NCBI GenBank assembly: GCA_016790705.1
Contig: JAEUOT010000012.1
Coordinates: 28,543 to 92,542, forward strand
From: Hydrogenophaga sp.
Lineage (GTDB): Bacteria > Pseudomonadota > Gammaproteobacteria > Burkholderiales > Burkholderiaceae_C
DNA: 64,000 bases
Direction of reading: 5' to 3'
The notes below the pieces were generated by a model. The model did not search any database and was not told where the DNA came from. It worked only from the letters and a program-made list of their open reading frames with translations. Shown here in pieces: positions 1,706 to 34,882 of this stretch (its first letter is position 1; each line of letters starts with the position of its first letter). Both the position numbers and the translations under genes were made by a program.

Positions 1706-3039
1706 GCGTTGTACACGGCGGGGTCGTCCACCTTGCGGATGTTGAAACGGCGGCGCTGCCAGGCCTGGAACGCCCGCCGGGGCTGCGTGATGTTGGCGAA
1801 GTAGTACAGGCCCTTGAAGAACAGGATCGAGCGCCAGATCGGGGTCTTGCCGAACACGTCGCCGGCCAGCACCGAAAGGATGGCCTCCTTGACGCGCAGC
1901 ACATTGCGCGGACCCATGAGGAAGTCGCGCATGATGGGATTGGTGACGCGGTAGATGAACCAGGAGAACTCCTTGGGGCCGTGGCGCATCACGCGGTCGA
2001 AGCGCTTGAGGGCCGCGCCGGTCTGTGCCGGCTGGCGCAGGCAGGTGTCGATGGTGTCCGCGCCGACGACCGCGCTGTGCATCGCCAGCCAGACGCCCGA
2101 TGAAAAGACAGGATCGATGAACGCATAGGCGTCGCCGAGCATGAGGTAGCTCTGGCCATGGTTGCGTTCGGAAACGTAAGAGAAGTTGCCGGTGGCTTCC
2201 ACCGGGCTGACCTGCGTCGCCATCGACAGGCGCTCGGCCAGCGGCGGACAGGTCGCGATGTTGTCCGTCAGGAACTGCTGCAGGCTGCGCGATCCCTTGG
2301 TCTTCATGTGGTACGGCCAGGTGACCATGCCGATGCTGGTCGTGCCGTTGGTCAGCGGAATGAACCAGAACCAGCCGTGGGCGAACCAGAAGATGCGGAT
2401 GTTGCCCTCGTCGTATCCTTCGCCCCGCGAGGTGCCGTCGAAATGGGCGTAGATCGCCGAGCTGTTGTGACGCGGGTTGCGGTGCTTGATGCGGAAGCGG
2501 TTGGCCAGAAAGGTGTCGCGGCCCGAGGCGTCCACCACGAAGCGGGCCCGCCATTGCAGCGACCGGCCCTCGTCGTCCACCGCGCGCACATCGGCGCCGC
2601 CTTCGGCCAGGAACTCGACGGCGGTGACCTTCACGCCCTCGAAGGCCTGCGCGCCCTTGTCACGGGCGTTGCGGAACAGGATCTGGTCGAAATCGGCGCG
2701 CCGCACCTGGTAGGCGTGCGGCATGGACTTGTCCCAGGCGTCGGCGAAATAGAAGGTCTGCGAGCGGCCGTGTTCCATCGAGACGAATTCGGCGCCCGGC
2801 TTGTACATGCCGATGGCCTTGATCTCGTCGGCAATGCCCATCTTCTCGAACAGGGGCAGGTTGGCCGGCAACAGCGATTCGCCGATGTGAAAACGCGGGT
2901 GGTGGGCCTTTTCGAGCAGCACCACCTGGTGCCCTTTTTCAGCGAGAAGACTGGCGACAGTGGCACCCGCCGGGCCACCGCCGATGACGAGAACATCGCA
3001 GGAAAGGCTGCCTGCTTCTGCCTGGGCCGGGGAGTTCAT
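1702..3039 (-). CDS. FAD-dependent halogenase-like oxidoreductase (first of two)
   Basis: A 445-residue flavoprotein. The Rossmann motif GGGPAGA lies at residues 20-26 and GES at 53-55. Lys80 sits in YKPGAEF, the position of the catalytic lysine of flavin-dependent halogenases. W223-F-W225-F-I-P228 is the WxWxIP motif that separates halogenases from monooxygenases. GDA at 302-304 and DPVFSSG at 309-315 complete the FAD site. Such enzymes use FADH2, O2 and a halide to make enzyme-bound HOCl or HOBr. A longer start at 3102 is possible, but its N-terminal addition is Pro/Arg-rich and unlike the family, so the ATG at 3039 is preferred. The neighbouring ketosynthases suggest an aryl-polyene substrate, as in brominated xanthomonadins. 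Geranylgeranyl-reductase-like activity is the alternative. Confidence 0.8.
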   Translation of the reverse strand: MNSPAQAEAGSLSCDVLVIGGGPAGATVASLLAEKGHQVVLLEKAHHPRFHIGESLLPANLPLFEKMGIADEIKAIGMYKPGAEFVSMEHGRSQTFYFADAWDKSMPHAYQVRRADFDQILFRNARDKGAQAFEGVKVTAVEFLAEGGADVRAVDDEGRSLQWRARFVVDASGRDTFLANRFRIKHRNPRHNSSAIYAHFDGTSRGEGYDEGNIRIFWFAHGWFWFIPLTNGTTSIGMVTWPYHMKTKGSRSLQQFLTDNIATCPPLAERLSMATQVSPVEATGNFSYVSERNHGQSYLMLGDAYAFIDPVFSSGVWLAMHSAVVGADTIDTCLRQPAQTGAALKRFDRVMRHGPKEFSWFIYRVTNPIMRDFLMGPRNVLRVKEAILSVLAGDVFGKTPIWRSILFFKGLYYFANITQPRRAFQAWQRRRFNIRKVDDPAVYNA

Positions 3040-3114
3040 GATGGGTCTCGGACGTGCGGTGCAGAGGCCGCCGGGAGGGAGCCGACGGCTGCCCTCCATC
3101 ATAGTGGCTCGGTG

Positions 3115-4743
3115 TCAGGCCACGGCGACAGGCAGCATGGGGGCGGCGCCCTCGGGACAGTGGTGCTCGGCCACCCGTTCTGCCAGCGATCCGGCATCCA
3201 GCGCCGGATGCTCGCTCAGCGCGCGAGCCAGGATTTCCGCGGCCAGCGCATGCAGCCTGTCGTGGGAGTCCCGGATGCGCTGGACGAAGGCGTCGCTGTC
3301 CAGGGTGTCGTTGAGGCTGCGATTGAGTTCGGCGAACCACGGCAGCGCCGCCTGGTCCAGCATCACAGGCGGGTTGCGCCGTGCGCTCACGCCCGACCAG
3401 GTGCGCAGGAACGCCTGCACCGCAGCGTTGAGCGCCTGGCAGCGCGCCAGTTGGGGCTGCAGCGCGGCCATCGAACCCAGGTCGGTCAGGCGGTCGTGGA
3501 ATACGAACTGTGCCAGCACGCCCCAGTAGTAGCTGTAGTCCCAGATCACTTTGACCGGCAACACCTCGGGGTCGCCGAAGATGGCGTACTGATCCTGGTA
3601 CAGGGTCAGGGTGCTGTCGTAGAACGAGTGCAGCAGTTGGTCGAACACCTGCGCCCGGGCGCCCAGGCGCCCACCCTGGCGGTCAGTCGCGATCAGTTCG
3701 GTGATGAAGGTGTTGCTGATGCCGATGAAGTCGCTGCCGGGCGAGTAGAACGGGTCCAGGAACAGGCCCGCCTCGCCGGTCAGGGCCCAGCGGTCGGCCG
3801 AGAAGAGCTGGCGGCAGCCGTAGGAGAAGCGCTTGAAGAAGGCGAAGTCCTGCAGCAGGTGGCGCTTGCCGTCGAGCTCGTCGAACAGCAGCGGCTGGTG
3901 GACGCGGAACCAGTCCATGGCCTTTTCGAAGGTGTCCATGGACGCCAGCGGGTGGTGGGCCGGGTCGGCCACGATGCCGACCGAGTGCGAGCCGGAGGAC
4001 AGCGGGATCAGCCAGACCCAGTAGCCGGCACCGACGAGGTGGTTGGTGGACAGCCAGCGCGCCGGCGGGTCGCAGCGCTCGCGCCAGGCCATGTTGTCGG
4101 TCCAGCGGTCGATTTCGATGCGGTCCTTGATGCGGAACCACACCGCGTGTGCGGCATGGTCGTTGGGCTCGGCCAGTCCCAGTTTGCGCTTGATCAGGCC
4201 GGCGCGGCCGCAGGCGTCGACCACCCATCGGGCGGTGACGCTGTGCGATTCAGCGCCGAGGCTGAACGCGACGCGGTGCATCGCGGCGGGGTCCTGCTCG
4301 CTGCCGGCCAGGTCCAGGCTGCGCACCAGCGAGCCTTCGATCACCTCGATGCCGCGCCGACGGGCTTCGGCGACCAGGAAATTCTCGAAGATGCCCCGGT
4401 CGATCTGGTAGCTCGGGACCGACAGGTGGCGGCTGGCGCCGATTTCGGTCACCTGGTCCAGGTCGCGCCGGCCCTCGGAGAAGAAGAAGCGGAACCCGAA
4501 CTTGCGCAGGTGCTTCTCGCGCAGGTGATCACCGAGGCCGATGACTTTGTCGAAGTAGTGGGCGCCGATTTCGACGGTCGATTCGCCCACCTTGTGCGCG
4601 GCCTCGGGCGCGGGCAGGCCGCGCCGTTCGAGCACCAGCACGTCAATGGTGGGGTCGCGCCGCTTGAGTTGCATCGCCAGCGTCAGGCCTGCCAGGCCGC
4701 CGCCCAGGATCACGACGTCGCGTGGGGAGGGTGGGTGTTCCAT
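3115..4743 (-). CDS. FAD-dependent halogenase-like oxidoreductase (second of two)
   Basis: A 542-residue flavoprotein related to but clearly different from the 1702-3039 product. It has GGGLAG at residues 14-19, KVGEST at 51-56, Lys81 in LRKFGFRF at the halogenase catalytic-lysine position, and W242-V-W244-L-I-P247 as the WxWxIP motif. EAGLFLDPFYSPG resembles the distal FAD-binding segment. An extra C-terminal region of about 150 residues distinguishes it from the shorter paralogue. The ATG at 4743 directly precedes the Rossmann strand; an extension to 4776 is possible but unneeded. It follows the KS-like gene by 29 nt and is probably cotranscribed. Whether it halogenates, or is an inactive partner or desaturase, cannot be decided from sequence. 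Confidence 0.78.
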   Translation of the reverse strand: MEHPPSPRDVVILGGGLAGLTLAMQLKRRDPTIDVLVLERRGLPAPEAAHKVGESTVEIGAHYFDKVIGLGDHLREKHLRKFGFRFFFSEGRRDLDQVTEIGASRHLSVPSYQIDRGIFENFLVAEARRRGIEVIEGSLVRSLDLAGSEQDPAAMHRVAFSLGAESHSVTARWVVDACGRAGLIKRKLGLAEPNDHAAHAVWFRIKDRIEIDRWTDNMAWRERCDPPARWLSTNHLVGAGYWVWLIPLSSGSHSVGIVADPAHHPLASMDTFEKAMDWFRVHQPLLFDELDGKRHLLQDFAFFKRFSYGCRQLFSADRWALTGEAGLFLDPFYSPGSDFIGISNTFITELIATDRQGGRLGARAQVFDQLLHSFYDSTLTLYQDQYAIFGDPEVLPVKVIWDYSYYWGVLAQFVFHDRLTDLGSMAALQPQLARCQALNAAVQAFLRTWSGVSARRNPPVMLDQAALPWFAELNRSLNDTLDSDAFVQRIRDSHDRLHALAAEILARALSEHPALDAGSLAERVAEHHCPEGAAPMLPVAVA

Positions 4744-4772
4744 GGGCGCAGTATCGCCGCAATCCTGCCCCT

Positions 4773-5570
4773 TCACGGGCAGTAGCGCAGGGACAGCGAC
4801 TGGTGGGTGCCGAGCGGCCAGGCGCCTTCTGCCGCCTCACGGCGGGCCAGCCACTCGAACATCGGCAGGGCGGCCGCCATGGCGTTTCGCTGCAGCGGCT
4901 GCACCTGTGCGCCCTGCGGTTCGGGGGGCGGGACCGGATGCGAGGTGACGGTGGCCGTGAGGCTGGCGTTCGGGTGGCCATCACCGTGTGGCGCCAGCAC
5001 CAGCGCCACCGCGAGCGCGGATTCGCTGGCGGTGGTGTGGGTCAGAGCGCCGACGGCTGCGGTGTCGTAGGCCACATAGAGCACCGGCTGCTGCTCGGCT
5101 TCACACTGCACCAGCGCTTCCAGCAGGCCTTGGGCGAAGCTGCATGCGGCGCCGCTGACGGCGGTGTGGGCGTGGCCGTTGTGGTTGAGCTGGCTCCAGA
5201 AGCCGGCGGGCGCGTTGTGGATCGAATGGAGGAACCGGGTCGGCGAAACCAGCGTGGGGGTGTGCACCAGCGTCCGGCAGAGGTCGTCTATCACCGGCAG
5301 GTCGCCGTGGGTCGAGGCAAACACGGCCAGCAGGCTGCCCGGGTCGCGCCCGCTGGCCGCCACAGCCTCCTCGGCGGCGGCCAGCGCCAGCGCGACGGTC
5401 TGGGGCGCGCGTCGGCGCTCGGCCGGGGGCAGCCGCGCGGGTGGCGGAATGGGACAGGGGGGCTGCACGGGTGCCAGGCGGCCGCTGAGCACCTCGCCCG
5501 CCACCGCCCAGCCGGGCATGAAGGGCGCCCAGAGCGAGACGCCTTCGATGCTGGCGCGAAGGGGGGTCAT
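4773..5570 (-). CDS. Beta-ketoacyl synthase chain-length-factor-like protein
   Basis: A 265-residue protein resembling the N-terminal half of a ketoacyl synthase (Ketoacyl-synt_2 type). It has SGAACSFAQGLLEAL around Cys143, but lacks the downstream HGT and KxxxGH histidine/lysine motifs. In aryl-polyene systems such a short KS-like subunit pairs with the full ketosynthase as a chain-length factor. The start ATG overlaps the stop of the 5567-6772 ketosynthase by 4 bp (ATGA), fitting a stoichiometric KS-CLF pair. The N-terminal 55 residues are Pro-rich. Confidence 0.8.
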   Translation of the reverse strand: MTPLRASIEGVSLWAPFMPGWAVAGEVLSGRLAPVQPPCPIPPPARLPPAERRRAPQTVALALAAAEEAVAASGRDPGSLLAVFASTHGDLPVIDDLCRTLVHTPTLVSPTRFLHSIHNAPAGFWSQLNHNGHAHTAVSGAACSFAQGLLEALVQCEAEQQPVLYVAYDTAAVGALTHTTASESALAVALVLAPHGDGHPNASLTATVTSHPVPPPEPQGAQVQPLQRNAMAAALPMFEWLARREAAEGAWPLGTHQSLSLRYCP

Positions 5571-6772
5571 GCGCCGGCTCCGCGCCCGAACAGCAGGACG
5601 GAATTGCTGCCGCCGAAGGCGAAGGCGTGACTGGCCGCGCAGCCGATGTCTTGCCGCACCGGACGGAGCAACAGGTGGTGGGCCATGGCGGGTTCCGGTG
5701 TCCGGGTCTGCACGGTGCCGGGCAGCAGGCCGTCGCGCAGCGCCAGCAGGGTGAACACGGCGCCGAGCGCGCCGGCTGCGCCCAGCGTGTGGCCGGTCAT
5801 GCCCTTGGTCGAACTGGCGGGCGTGCCCGGCGCAAAGCGTTGCGCGATTAGCCGGGCCTCGACCTCGTCGTTCTTGGGCGTGGCGGTGCCGTGCAGGTGC
5901 AGGTAGCCGATGTCCGCGGTCGTCAGGCCGGCCCGCTTCAGCGCCATCTCCAGCGCTGCGGCCGCACCCACGCCCTCCGGGTCTGGCGCGGAGAGGTGGT
6001 GCGCGTCGCTGGACTCGCCGTGACCCAGCAGCAGCAGATCGCCGTCACCGCGCTCCAGCAGGGCGAACGCGGCCGCTTCGCCGATGCTGATGCCCTGACG
6101 GTTCACGTCGAACGGTCGGCAGGGCTCGGGCGACACCAGCTGAAGCGCGTGAAACCCGAACAGCACGCTGCCGCAGAGGCTGTCCACGCCGCCGACCACC
6201 GCCGCGTCCGCCAGGCCCAGGCGAATCAGGCGCTCGGCGGCGGCAAAGGCCTTGGCGCTGGAGGAACAGGCGGTCGAGATGCTCAGTTCGATGCCCTGCA
6301 GACCCAGGGCCTCTTTCACGAAACCGGTGAGTGAGTGCAGGGTGTGCAGGCTGCGGTTGTCCGGCTGGGGTGGAAAACGACCGGTGACCGCCAGCGCCGC
6401 GTAGCCGTCCTCGGTTTCCCCGATGCTGGCGGTGGACGAACCCAGGACGAGGGCGACGCGCCCGGCGCCGTGGCGAGCGACCGCCTGCGCGACGCTCTCT
6501 GCGAAGCCATCCGCCAGCAGACCCCGCCAGGCCAGGCGGTTGTTGCGGCAATCCCAGTGTGAAAACCGGCCGGGCAGCGCCTGCTCAAGCCCGTCCACGC
6601 GACCGACCCAGGTCTGCGGCGCCTCCACCAAGGGCCGCGCGCCGAAGTCGTGGAGTCCCAGCGGTTGCAGCCCACTGCGTCCCGACGCGACCGCAGCCTG
6701 CATCGCCTGGCAGCCGTCGCCCAGCGCGGAGACGGCGGTGAAGGCGCTGACACGAAGGGGAGGGATGGGCAC
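5567..6772 (-). CDS. Beta-ketoacyl-[acyl-carrier-protein] synthase (FabF/ApeO-like) of the aryl-polyene cluster
   Basis: A 401-residue thiolase-fold condensing enzyme with the full set of KS residues: Cys169 in STACSSS, His294 in HLHGTATPKND, and Lys323 and His328 in STKGMTGHTLGAAG. The C-terminus carries SHAFAFGGSNS, where most FabF proteins have NSFGFGGTN. It condenses malonyl-ACP onto a growing polyene chain with its partner at 4773-5570. The frame is open to 7081, but that extension crosses the divergent promoter at 6849; a GTG at 6772 begins exactly where KS homology starts (VPIPPLRVSAFTAVSALGDG). No good ribosome-binding site is visible, so the start is approximate. Confidence 0.88.
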   Translation of the reverse strand: MPIPPLRVSAFTAVSALGDGCQAMQAAVASGRSGLQPLGLHDFGARPLVEAPQTWVGRVDGLEQALPGRFSHWDCRNNRLAWRGLLADGFAESVAQAVARHGAGRVALVLGSSTASIGETEDGYAALAVTGRFPPQPDNRSLHTLHSLTGFVKEALGLQGIELSISTACSSSAKAFAAAERLIRLGLADAAVVGGVDSLCGSVLFGFHALQLVSPEPCRPFDVNRQGISIGEAAAFALLERGDGDLLLLGHGESSDAHHLSAPDPEGVGAAAALEMALKRAGLTTADIGYLHLHGTATPKNDEVEARLIAQRFAPGTPASSTKGMTGHTLGAAGALGAVFTLLALRDGLLPGTVQTRTPEPAMAHHLLLRPVRQDIGCAASHAFAFGGSNSVLLFGRGAGA

Positions 6773-30409: not shown

Positions 30410-30564
30410 GGCAGGGACTGCCCAGGCGAACGGCTGAACACCCGGCAAGCGGGTGGTGCGCTTCCCAGTGGTTGTCCCGCTCGCGGGGAGCGGGGGGCCA
30501 CGTCAGCGCCGACGGCAGGTGGTCTGCCGCGCGCCTATCGCCAGTTGCGCACCCCGTTAGTTTA
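30410..30564 (-). promoter_or_regulatory. glyA promoter and hairpin-rich 5' leader
   Basis: The 251 bases between glyA and the transglycosylase gene hold a candidate -10 (TAAACT on the minus strand, 30559-30564) and then four perfect short hairpins on the glyA transcript: 30513-30529 (6 bp, 5-nt loop), 30476-30494 (7 bp, arms CCCGCTC/GAGCGGG, 5-nt loop), 30439-30455 (6 bp, CACCCG/CGGGTG, 5-nt loop) and 30410-30422 (5 bp, GGCAG/CTGCC, 3-nt loop). No coding potential is evident. The regular spacing suggests a structured regulatory leader; the mechanism is unknown. Confidence 0.45.
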
Positions 30565-31839: not shown

Positions 31840-31869
31840 TTGATCCGGTTTTTTGAAAGTCCGTGTAAC
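31840..31869 (+). promoter_or_regulatory. Candidate sigma-70 promoter of the small RNA
   Basis: TTGATC (31840-31845), an 18-base spacer and TGTAAC (31864-31869) match the hexamers at four of six positions each. The predicted start is near 31876, where the first hairpin of the candidate RNA begins. Confidence 0.4.
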
Positions 31870-31875
31870 TGGCGG

Positions 31876-32100
31876 CCGTGCATCTTGAAAGACACGGAGC
31901 GCAGGAGTACGCTTCAGGCGCTGGTTGTGATGACCAGTGCCTGCCGGCTACAAGGTTCAGCCAAGTGGTCGGCCCCCTCGGGAGCAATCTCTTGCTCCCC
32001 GGGCGCGGGGACATCGCTCTCCCCGCGTCCAACCCGACGGCAAGTGCCTTGTTGCCCGCCGTCAACCCCGGCAGACTGGTTCTGCCGGGGTTTCTTCTTT
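31876..32100 (+). ncRNA. Candidate structured small RNA, about 220 nt, unknown family
   Basis: A non-coding stretch packed with perfect hairpins in series: 31876-31897 (5 bp), 31918-31940 (8 bp including one G-U), 31980-31999 (8 bp, GGGAGCAA/TTGCTCCC), 32004-32027 (8 bp, CGCGGGGA/TCCCCGCG), 32036-32063 (6 bp) and 32066-32090 (9 bp) followed by a T-rich tract. An additional small hairpin near 31901 presents GGA in its loop, as CsrA/RsmA sites do. A weak promoter precedes it. The long frame crossing this region belongs to an artificial extension of the DUF349 gene. It does not resemble tmRNA, 6S, 4.5S or RNase P RNA as far as I can recall their conserved cores. Confidence 0.55.
32066..32100 (+). 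terminator. Rho-independent terminator ending the small RNA
   Basis: CCCCGGCAG, a 7-base loop and CTGCCGGGG form a perfect 9-bp stem (32066-32074 with 32082-32090), followed by TTTCTTCTTT. Nothing coding on the plus strand lies upstream, so it must end a non-coding transcript starting in 31690-32060. Confidence 0.85.
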
Positions 32101-32203: not shown

Positions 32204-34882
32204 ATGTCGCTTTTTTCTCTGCGCAAATCCACCCCTTCTTCCCCTGTGTCCGATAGCTCTGGTGCCGCGGCTGCTGGCGCCCGGCCTGGCACCACCGCGT
32301 CGGCACCGCATCCGCTGGATGCGGTCACGCTTGGCGCTTTTTCGGCGCCGACTTCCGGTGAGCGTGCTGCCAAGCTGCGGGCCTGGTTGCAGACCGAGCC
32401 GAGTCCGGAACTGATGAACGAGGTCTACAAGGAGCTGTCGCAGCGCGACAGAGGGGCGGCCAAGCCGCTCAAGGAAAAGCTCGACGAGGTCCGTCGCCAG
32501 AAGGCGCAGGAACATATCGGCATCGAATGGGCGCAAAAGGCGCAGGCACTGATCGGCCAGTCGCGCATGAATCTGGCCGATGCGCTGGCCTGGCAGCGAG
32601 ACGCTGCTCGGGCGGGCGCTCCGCTGTCCCGTGAGCCGCTGGCCGGGTTGAAGCTGGCACTGGCTGATCGGGTCAAGGCCATCGAAGACCTGCAGGACCG
32701 GGTGCAGATCAAGCGCGAATCCGCCGTGCTGATGGCGCAGCGCATCGAGGTCTTGTCCACCAAGTCCTGGCGCGAAGCCCAGTCGAGTGCGGAGGCACTG
32801 CGCGCGGACGTCGGTCTGTGGCAGCAGGAGGCGACCGCCCTGATGGAGGATGCTCAGTGGGCGAGTGTCGAGCCCAAGTTCCCGCCCATGCTGGATGCCT
32901 CGCGTCAACAACTGCAACTGGTGTGGGACGCGTTTGAGGCGGCGCTGGGTCTGGCGGTGGCGGCGGACGCCGATCCGCAGGCACCGCTGCCGGCAGTGCC
33001 TGTCTGGGCCGACGAGTTGCGCGTGGCCCGTGGCGAGCCGGCCGAAGCCGCTGCCAGCCAGGACGCGCAGGCCCAGAAGGAGCGCCGCGAGAAGGCCCAG
33101 GCCGATCTGGAGCGGGCCCTGTCTGCGCTGGAGAGCGAGGTCGCGCAGGGTCATGGCAAAGCGGCGCCCAAGGCGGCGGCGGATGTGCGTGCGCTGCTGA
33201 AGTCCCAAGGCCGTCTGCTCGGGCCTGAACTGGAGGCCCGCGCTCACGCGGTTCTGGCCCAGGCGGGGGAGCTGGAGGACTGGCAGCGGTGGCGTGCGGA
33301 CCAACTGCGCGAAGAGCTGGTCAAGAAGGCTGAAGCCCTGCTGGCGCCGCCGGAAGGGCAGCGCCTGGGTGGGCGCAAGCTGCAGGAAACACTTCGCACC
33401 CTGCGAGAACAATGGAAGACCACCGATCAGGGCGGTCCAGCCAACCATGCGCTCTGGAAGCGCTTCGACGAGGCGTGTACCCAGGCCCACAAGTTGGTGG
33501 AGGCCTGGTTGCTGCAGGTGCGCCAGCAGGCGGAAACCCACAAGGCCCAGCGCGTGGCGCTGATTGCCGAGTTGCGCGCCTGGACGGAGATCCATGCGGG
33601 CCAGACCGACTGGAAGGCGCAGATCCGGGACCTGCACAACTTCTCCGAGCGCTGGCGCGAGGCCGGGCACCTGGGCGAGAAAGCCTTTGCCGAGCTTCAG
33701 CCGCAGTGGAAGGAGGCCATGCACGCTGCGCACGCCGCGCTTGAAGGGGCTCAGTCCGACAGCATCGCCCGCCGGCGCCAGATGATCGAAGAGGCGGAAA
33801 CGCTGGGAGCCAGCCCGGTGCTGCGGATTGATGCCGTCAAGGCATTGCAGCAGCGCTGGCAGGCGGAAGCCCATGCAGTGCCTCTGGAGCGCAAGCAGGA
33901 ACAGAAACTCTGGGAGGCGTTCCGTCAGCCGATCGACGCAGCGTTCCAGCGCAAGAGCCACGAGCGTGAGAAGGCGTCAGCGGCGCTGAATGCGCACGAT
34001 CAGCGTGTGCTCGATGCAGCCAGGGCGCTGGAGGCGGCCAGTGCCGCCGGCGACGCACAGAAGATCCGTCAGGCTCAGGAAGCGCTGGAGCAGGCGATGC
34101 GGGGCCAGGCGCCAACGGCGTCCGCTGCCGAGCCGGCCGCAGGACCTGCAGCGACTGAAGCCATCGAGGAAAACTCTGCGTCTGAAGTCGCGGAACAACA
34201 GCCCGAAGGCGCAGTGCAGCCGACACCGACGCAGACACCCGCCCGCAAGCTGGTGGCGATGCGGGGGGATGACCGGCCCGGCATGAAAAAGGCCGAGCCG
34301 GCAGGGCGAGATGACCGTCGGGGTCCTGGTGGACGGGACGCAAGAGGCGGTCGCGACGCAGGGCGTGGCGCTCGCGAGGGCTGGAGCGATGCCCGTCCTG
34401 GCCGGGAACCCCGCGGTCCTGCCACGCCTCGTCTGGGCGACGCCGCGTTCCGAGCCCAGCGTCAGGCGATCGAGCATGCCGAAGCGGCGCTTCGCAAGCT
34501 GGCCGCGCAGGCGCACGGCGAGGTGCTCACACAGCTCATCGACGCGTGGGAAAACCGTGATCCGGCGAAGGTGCCTGCGGCTCAGGCGTTGGGCCGGGTG
34601 GGCGCGCCTGTCCGGGCCGCCTGGGTCCAGGCCATCGGTGCCGCGCCCAAGGCCATGTCGCCCGAGGCGCTGCTGCGGCTGGAAATGGCGGCCGAGGTGC
34701 CGACGCCCGCAGATCAGGTGGATGCACGTCGCTTGCTGCAACTGCAGCTGCTGACGCGTCGTCACGACGCGCCGCCCGCAGACACCTGGGGCAAGGACCT
34801 GGCGGATGTGTTCGGCAGCAGCCACGAAGCGGGCGCCGCCCGTCGGGTGCAGAACGTGCTGAAGGTTCTGCTGCGTCGCTGA
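32204..34882 (+). CDS. DUF349 domain-containing protein
   Basis: 892 residues, almost entirely helical and rich in Ala, Gln, Glu and Arg, with repeated WKxxxx(F/Y)xxAxxxAH(K/A) modules (for example ALWKRFDEACTQAHK and KLWEAFRQPIDAAF) that define DUF349 repeats. A low-complexity Arg/Gly/Asp segment at about residues 685-740 (GGRDARGGRDAGRGAREGW-like) resembles RNA-binding RGG linkers. The C-terminal 140 residues form a separate helical unit. The ATG at 32204 begins MSLFSLRKS; the frame upstream is the small-RNA region. Function is unknown; coiled, charge-rich architecture suggests a scaffolding or nucleic-acid role, which is inference. Confidence 0.85.
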   Translation: MSLFSLRKSTPSSPVSDSSGAAAAGARPGTTASAPHPLDAVTLGAFSAPTSGERAAKLRAWLQTEPSPELMNEVYKELSQRDRGAAKPLKEKLDEVRRQKAQEHIGIEWAQKAQALIGQSRMNLADALAWQRDAARAGAPLSREPLAGLKLALADRVKAIEDLQDRVQIKRESAVLMAQRIEVLSTKSWREAQSSAEALRADVGLWQQEATALMEDAQWASVEPKFPPMLDASRQQLQLVWDAFEAALGLAVAADADPQAPLPAVPVWADELRVARGEPAEAAASQDAQAQKERREKAQADLERALSALESEVAQGHGKAAPKAAADVRALLKSQGRLLGPELEARAHAVLAQAGELEDWQRWRADQLREELVKKAEALLAPPEGQRLGGRKLQETLRTLREQWKTTDQGGPANHALWKRFDEACTQAHKLVEAWLLQVRQQAETHKAQRVALIAELRAWTEIHAGQTDWKAQIRDLHNFSERWREAGHLGEKAFAELQPQWKEAMHAAHAALEGAQSDSIARRRQMIEEAETLGASPVLRIDAVKALQQRWQAEAHAVPLERKQEQKLWEAFRQPIDAAFQRKSHEREKASAALNAHDQRVLDAARALEAASAAGDAQKIRQAQEALEQAMRGQAPTASAAEPAAGPAATEAIEENSASEVAEQQPEGAVQPTPTQTPARKLVAMRGDDRPGMKKAEPAGRDDRRGPGGRDARGGRDAGRGAREGWSDARPGREPRGPATPRLGDAAFRAQRQAIEHAEAALRKLAAQAHGEVLTQLIDAWENRDPAKVPAAQALGRVGAPVRAAWVQAIGAAPKAMSPEALLRLEMAAEVPTPADQVDARRLLQLQLLTRRHDAPPADTWGKDLADVFGSSHEAGAARRVQNVLKVLLRR

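Follow-up and report, generated by a model that had tools for sequence, protein, structure and literature searches.

We find a conserved, predicted small RNA of about 180 nt on the forward strand of the window (31919..32100, +), the window being the whole stretch of 64,000 nucleotides from a Hydrogenophaga genome that was analysed. It is marked by its fold, by its match to a covariance model and by covariation. Comparison with relatives strongly supports its reading as a stand-alone sRNA gene, with a predicted sigma-70-like promoter and an intrinsic terminator. The feature is real at the sequence level and conserved, and, as it lacks a gathering-level match in Rfam, it would represent a new RNA family of a known kind, an intergenic sRNA. 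A preliminary description of this DNA had proposed a new non-coding RNA with a terminator, and this proposal is backed by covariation, by synteny, by the conservation of the promoter and by the fact that Rfam gives no match.

The interval proposed there, 31876-32100, has a folding energy of -120.4 kcal/mol compared with a mean of -87.8 for shuffled sequences (z -7.34), and none of 200 dinucleotide shuffles folds as well. When trimmed to 31919-32100 (+), the transcript obtains a z of -7.52 and forms five serial hairpins (H1 to H5), followed by an intrinsic terminator hairpin of 12 bp. The 5' end is placed from the position of the promoter and the 3' end from the terminator. A start at 31876 is therefore too far upstream, as 31876-31913 contains the promoter and the small stem located there is outside the conserved RNA; the first "stem" of that interval includes the -35 box, i.e. 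it is promoter DNA. The series of five hairpins and the terminator stand, while the "six perfect stems" do not, since H2 and H5 contain internal loops, and the terminator stem, described with 9 bp, has 12 bp (32064-32092). The reverse strand of the region likewise folds well (z -6.08), as expected of serial hairpins, and the strand is thus settled by other evidence. In A1, the alignment of close relatives described below, the third H3 pair is most often G-U (16/28). Read on the other strand, this pair would become an A-C mismatch, a result in favour of + strand transcription.

The RNA does not appear to encode a peptide. Among the ORFs of at least 8 codons that end within it, no start position is common to more than 9 of the 28 relatives, which speaks against a small peptide or a shared leader peptide and agrees with the earlier claim that the RNA has no ORF of its own. 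A GTG at 31937 opens a frame that runs on into the DUF349 gene, and the DUF349 protein itself starts at 32204, about 100 bases further on, as had been described. The combination found here, a conserved secondary structure and no shared ORF, is that of an sRNA.

To describe the conservation of the structure, we collected the relatives obtained by blastn in the alignment A1, using 28 of 30 rows (L009 is cut by a contig end and L030 is divergent), and built the covariance model R1 from it. R1 matches the window at 31911-32100 with 159.5 bits, the window sequence being one of the 28 training rows. RNAalifold predicts 51 pairs on A1, 24 of them with compensatory changes in at least one sequence. 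The paired columns are paired in 97.4% of the cells, and a shift of the partner by at most three columns lowers this to 47.9% or less. Double changes are found at 24 pairs and in 97 cells, against means of 11.0 and 25.1 after shuffling, and none of 500 shuffles reaches these values.

Wider alignments give the same picture. An R1 search was performed on 45 of 88 sources, chosen for spread, and after dropping one duplicate, 44 rows remained (A3). The core model R2, from H3 to the terminator, consists of 44 sequences. The alignment A5 contains 50 rows, i.e. 35 of the 44 A3 rows and the 15 of 20 weak R2 hits that have an SLT transglycosylase gene as neighbour; nine A3 rows were left out for shortness (L108, L062, L111, L077, L078, L106, L104, L112, L101) and five weak hits because they have no SLT neighbour (L142, L145, L151, L152, L159). 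In A5, 30 of 40 pairs show compensatory changes, and none of 500 shuffles is as high. The compensatory changes that the structure first proposed calls for in relatives are thus present in A1 (24/51 pairs) as well as in the wider set A5 (30/40). The loci L050-L119 were retrieved with an exact H3 pattern, which guarantees H3 conservation among them; this bias does not affect A1, the genome searches or the weak R2 hits. Five of the 70 loci obtained with this 20-base pattern are chance matches (L060, L083, L087, L094, L098; R1 score at most 21.1 bits).

The hairpins are conserved to different degrees. H1 (31919..31939, +) has 8 bp in the window, and double-sided changes occur at all 7 consensus pairs. 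H2 (31943..31973, +), defined by the fold and the A1 helix counts, is variable and contains inserts in other genera. The most conserved element, according to the pair counts in A1 and in the wider set, is H3 (31980..31999, +), which reads GGGAGCAA-TCTC-TTGCTCCC and has the consensus GGRAGCAA-UCNN-UUGCUYCC. Six of its eight pairs are invariant within A1, and because H3 is nearly invariant within the genus it shows no double changes in it. In the wider set anchored by the SLT gene, compensated changes are found at five of the eight pairs of the stem and the loop AUC is mostly kept.

The percentages of paired cells in A5 were counted on the fold of the window's own sequence and lean towards it. 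H4 (32001..32030, +), seen in the fold and the A5 counts, consists of an apical GGGAC...CUCCC with an open loop and of a long outer stem that is not conserved in register: 86.5% of the cells are paired in the apical part and 38.5% in the outer stem, which counts against the full fold of the window. The sequence of the H4 loop shows no conservation outside the genus. H5 (32036..32063, +; GACGGC...GCCGUC), supported by the fold and by the A1 and A5 counts, holds with 84.8% paired, as does the lower terminator stem with 96.4%; the pairing is less well kept in inner H5 (69.3%) and in the upper terminator stem (77.1%). The terminator (32064..32100, +), supported by the fold and the A1 counts, has its 12-bp stem at 32064-32092 followed by a T-rich tail. 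Both stem and tract are conserved, as in an sRNA with an intrinsic terminator of its own. Averaged over A1, the bases that are conserved and mostly unpaired belong to the loops of H3 and H4 and to the linkers that precede H3 and follow H4. None of the hairpin loops of the predicted fold contains GGA.

The predicted sigma-70-like promoter is located at 31885..31913 (+), with the -35 box TTGAAA (31885-31890), a spacer of 17 nt and the -10 box TACGCT (31908-31913), and it is conserved: relatives share a CTTGA-N17-TAACCT-like pattern in the stretch just 5' of H1. A loose pattern, TTG...-N(16-18)-TA...T, counted without a background control, directly precedes the RNA in 54 of 70 sequences, the window included. 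In the high-scoring group it is found in 39 of 40 sequences, with a spacer of 17 nt in all 39, and the sole miss (L051) is cut by the locus end; among the remaining sequences it is found in 15 of 30, and in the first locus set in 26 of 30. Delftia and Comamonas do not fit this pattern and have, judged by eye, a TATATT- or TATAGT-like box further upstream. The relatives give no support to a promoter at 31840-31869, as had been proposed; the conserved one is that at 31885-31913. The conserved TTG...-N17-TA...T box would provide the promoter of its own that an sRNA gene should have.

Upstream of the promoter we noticed a further element, ATTGAAAA..T.CATSR. The pattern was drawn by eye from these same loci, and in 16 Hydrogenophaga genomes it has 8 exact matches, all 8 at the promoter of this RNA, an exact match being missing in 8 of the 16; the reversed pattern, used as control, has no match in the same 16 genomes. 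In every match the edge lies 45-62 bases upstream of the start of the RNA model. The copy in the window, at about 31849-31865, is degenerate. The conservation of this element suggests that the transcription of the RNA is itself regulated, and it may be a candidate site for a dedicated regulator or transcription factor.

The gene neighbourhood was examined in 63 of the 65 genuine loci from the H3 pattern (L057 and L079 are cut by contig ends). On one side the constant neighbour is a gene for an SLT transglycosylase, an enzyme of the cell wall (PF01464; 30603..31520, - strand in the window). It is divergent from the RNA in all 55 of the 63 loci in which it was detected, with the match 371-691 bases upstream of the model start. 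It is also found beside the RNA in 15 of 19 weaker R2 matches of the family fetched with their surroundings, and is absent beside four. On the other side, the gene of the DUF349 protein (PF03993; 32204..34882, + strand in the window) is a frequent neighbour, not a constant one. DUF349 is found downstream in 43 of the 63 loci. In 28 it is adjacent, on the same strand and with the match edge -5 to 227 bases from the RNA, and in 15 it is separated by 3.8-4.5 kb. Among the 20 loci without DUF349, ten extend 2.1-4.4 kb downstream, which shows that the gene is not next to the RNA in these loci either; the other ten have less sequence or are cut short.

In one of the loci with a gap, L102, a DUF748/AsmA-like gene (2745-6380, +; tested with Pfam) lies between the RNA and DUF349, its start being about 84 bases beyond the RNA. 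In L104 and L069, ORFs comparable in size and starting point are seen by eye, and a gap like that of L102 occurs in 14 other loci. The DUF748 gene is absent from the window, which suggests gain or loss of an envelope gene at this place. Since the downstream gene varies and the SLT gene is constant, the terminator does not make the RNA the leader of one fixed gene. The comparison supports that the RNA keeps to the SLT side and that its position is independent of the downstream gene. Among the genes named here, SLT, DUF349 and DUF748 were tested with Pfam, and the names GlyA, NrdR and LpxH are those which we presume from the protein sequences. In the same neighbourhood a ZMP/ZTP riboswitch (RF01750, 40.7 bits) is located at 30413-30558 (-) of the window, as the leader of the gene read as glyA; the ZTP riboswitch is also found near this locus in L092, L153 and L099.

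A blastn search with the window sequence matched 30 of 60 genomes, its own genome included, all from one genus, Hydrogenophaga. With R1, 58 of 67 Hydrogenophaga genomes are matched, training sequences included. Among those of good quality (at least 90% completeness and at most 5% contamination) all 44 contain the RNA, and the nine misses are assemblies less than 90% complete. A second, weak R1 match (24.2-26.8 bits) occurs in five of the 58 genomes, one of these being the terminator read backwards. In the family, R2 matches 120 of 299 genomes and 62 of the 141 genera sampled, with one match each. The carriers are related bacteria of water and soil; those with a name include Hydrogenophaga, Comamonas, Delftia, Ramlibacter, Curvibacter, Polaromonas and Rhodoferax, from which we infer that the family is Comamonadaceae. 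The larger genome searches use stricter filters that lose weak matches, and these counts may thus be low.

In draws of 300 genomes each across the order, R2 matches eight, six in the family and two outside, and R1 matches 19. Six of the latter belong to the family, and the other 13 (L037-L049) are weak, with 21.7-37.6 bits. None of these 13 has a match to SLT, DUF349, GlyA, NrdR or LpxH within about 1.5 kb, and we treat the matches outside the family as unproven. In L142 (1501-1622, -), from a genome of 1.7 Mb outside the family, R2 scores 43.7 bits on a match of 44% G+C that contains the H3 hairpin and has no SLT neighbour. No match to the window sequence was found in plasmid and phage records by blastn, which reaches little beyond the genus.

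At the RNA, in the window as in 18 related loci, Rfam gives no hit at the gathering level of any family. In the whole window, Rfam at gathering thresholds reports only a tRNA (tRNA-Ser by ARAGORN) and the ZTP riboswitch. The best weak match at the RNA is sX11 (RF02230), a proteobacterial sRNA with a GC-rich terminator hairpin, with 26.5 bits at 32000-32099. Membership in sX11 is ruled out on score, as its gathering score is 70 bits, and most of the match, as we read the alignment, comes from the terminator. 6S RNA is also a stand-alone RNA of about 180 nt; however, it forms one long interrupted hairpin, in contrast to the five serial hairpins found here. The 6S model (RF00013; gathering score 46.4 bits) has no match at the locus, even at E up to 5, nor in the organism's own genome (84.75% complete). 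The RNAs CsrB, RsmY and RsmZ, which act as CsrA sponges, are serial hairpins ending in a terminator, and the RNA described here resembles them in this respect. It differs in that its hairpin loops have no GGA and in that CsrA is found in none of 36 genomes (see below).

Full-text literature searches, judged mostly by titles and the starts of abstracts, gave no paper that we recognised as describing this RNA. The sX11 RNA is named in a Herbaspirillum study (PMC6337395), and a Bordetella study (PMC3110155) was also consulted. The Burkholderiales-1 motif, a candidate RNA of Burkholderiales from 2010, is marked with '?' as an RNA and has no Rfam number in Table 1 of its source (PMC2864571). We compared it by its description in that table and text, in which it is, like the RNA here, a Burkholderiales candidate RNA without an Rfam number, and the two may be identical. 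According to PMC11722255, the S17 RNA of Bordetella, from a family with toxic sRNAs of Burkholderia, is a betaproteobacterial sRNA of about 190 nt; its promoter is of the sigma-A type with a spacing of 17 bp, and it ends at an intrinsic terminator. By this description it resembles the RNA here in general build but is set apart by its locus, where it is flanked by a glycosyltransferase gene and coq7. What is broadly conserved in S17 is a stretch of 27 nt close to the 5' end of a processed form.

As to the mode of action, we think that the RNA is probably a stand-alone sRNA acting in trans, with its own promoter and terminator and with pairing to mRNAs through exposed bases. It would be transcribed from the sigma-70-like promoter up to the intrinsic terminator, possibly under control of the ATTGAAAA..T.CATSR element, and would most likely act as a post-transcriptional regulator. 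Pairing with target mRNAs would involve the exposed bases of loops and linkers, foremost those in the loops of H3 (AUC) and H4 (GAC...CUC). Hfq perhaps assists this pairing, and as for an Hfq-dependent sRNA, Hfq is encoded in the same genome (PF17209, 104.7 bits). However, classical Hfq sRNAs are not so fully paired and have an uninterrupted U run as tail, and in the RNA described here almost all bases are paired and the tail is not an uninterrupted U run, which counts against a reading of the Hfq type. The two neighbouring mRNAs do not appear to be the targets. The start regions of the SLT genes give no consistent duplex signal (mean z 0.04 over 54 loci), nor do those of the DUF349 genes (mean -0.45, median -0.16 over 43 loci). 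Low values among the 40 rows listed for DUF349 are found at single loci (L050 -5.1, L080 -3.4, L116 -3.2) and are not common to relatives. At loci with an adjacent DUF349 gene the tested stretch may overlap the terminator of the RNA itself; for L080, with DUF349 at a distance of 4 kb, this explanation fails.

The main rival to this trans-acting reading is a regulatory RNA that binds a protein: the conserved H3 and H4 would be recognised by an RNA-binding protein, which is titrated or recruited without mRNA pairing, in analogy to 6S, CsrB and GlmY/GlmZ. The RNA is highly structured, it is present in all 44 good Hydrogenophaga genomes, and in most relatives the H3 hairpin and its loop AUC are kept while the stem covaries, all of which would fit such a role. 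We nevertheless hold it to be unlikely, if quite conceivable, as the proteins and RNAs of this kind that we searched for were not found. CsrA (PF02599) is found in none of 36 genomes, the organism's own included (22 of the genus and 14 of the order), whereas the same search finds it in E. coli, B. subtilis and T. maritima. ProQ is not found in the organism's own genome (84.75% complete), and 6S has no match at this locus, as noted above. The binding of CsrA/RsmA through GGA, hinted at in the preliminary description, is contradicted by the lack of CsrA and by the hairpin loops without GGA, and the idea of a CsrA sponge fails because none of the 36 genomes has CsrA.

The RNA could instead serve the downstream gene in cis, as a 5' leader or attenuator whose last hairpin terminates conditionally. 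The terminator does stand before a coding gene, and in the 28 of 43 loci with an adjacent DUF349 gene, this gene has the same orientation as the RNA and is first matched within 227 bases of the RNA end. This reading is disfavoured and in our view improbable, as a constant position upstream of DUF349 is not observed: the gene is 3.8-4.5 kb away in 15 of the 43 loci, it is missing in ten more loci with 2.1-4.4 kb of downstream sequence, and in L102 the DUF748 gene follows the RNA after about 84 bases instead. Moreover, the relatives share no leader peptide, and the constant neighbour is the divergent SLT gene. A DNA-level element, with the inverted repeat of H3 as an operator and only incidental repeats or terminators besides, would account for H3 being a perfect dyad with little variation within the genus. 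We give it hardly any credence, since the H3 stem shows compensatory changes at five of eight pairs in the wider set and G-U pairs are common in it, and since H3 is flanked by further covarying helices, a promoter and a terminator.

The RNA described here is probably a core regulator, given its presence in all 44 good Hydrogenophaga genomes and in 62 of 141 genera of the family, together with its own predicted promoter and terminator. It is doubtful that this core Comamonadaceae RNA binds an RNA-binding protein through H3 and H4 and has the role of a global regulator where CsrA is not found; the setting of that idea is that ProQ and a recognisable 6S are not found in one incomplete genome. As no Rfam family reaches the gathering score, annotation that relies on Rfam would miss the RNA, and the covariance models obtained here provide a tool to search for it. 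A culturable Hydrogenophaga from which the RNA has been deleted would give access to sRNA regulation in Comamonadaceae.
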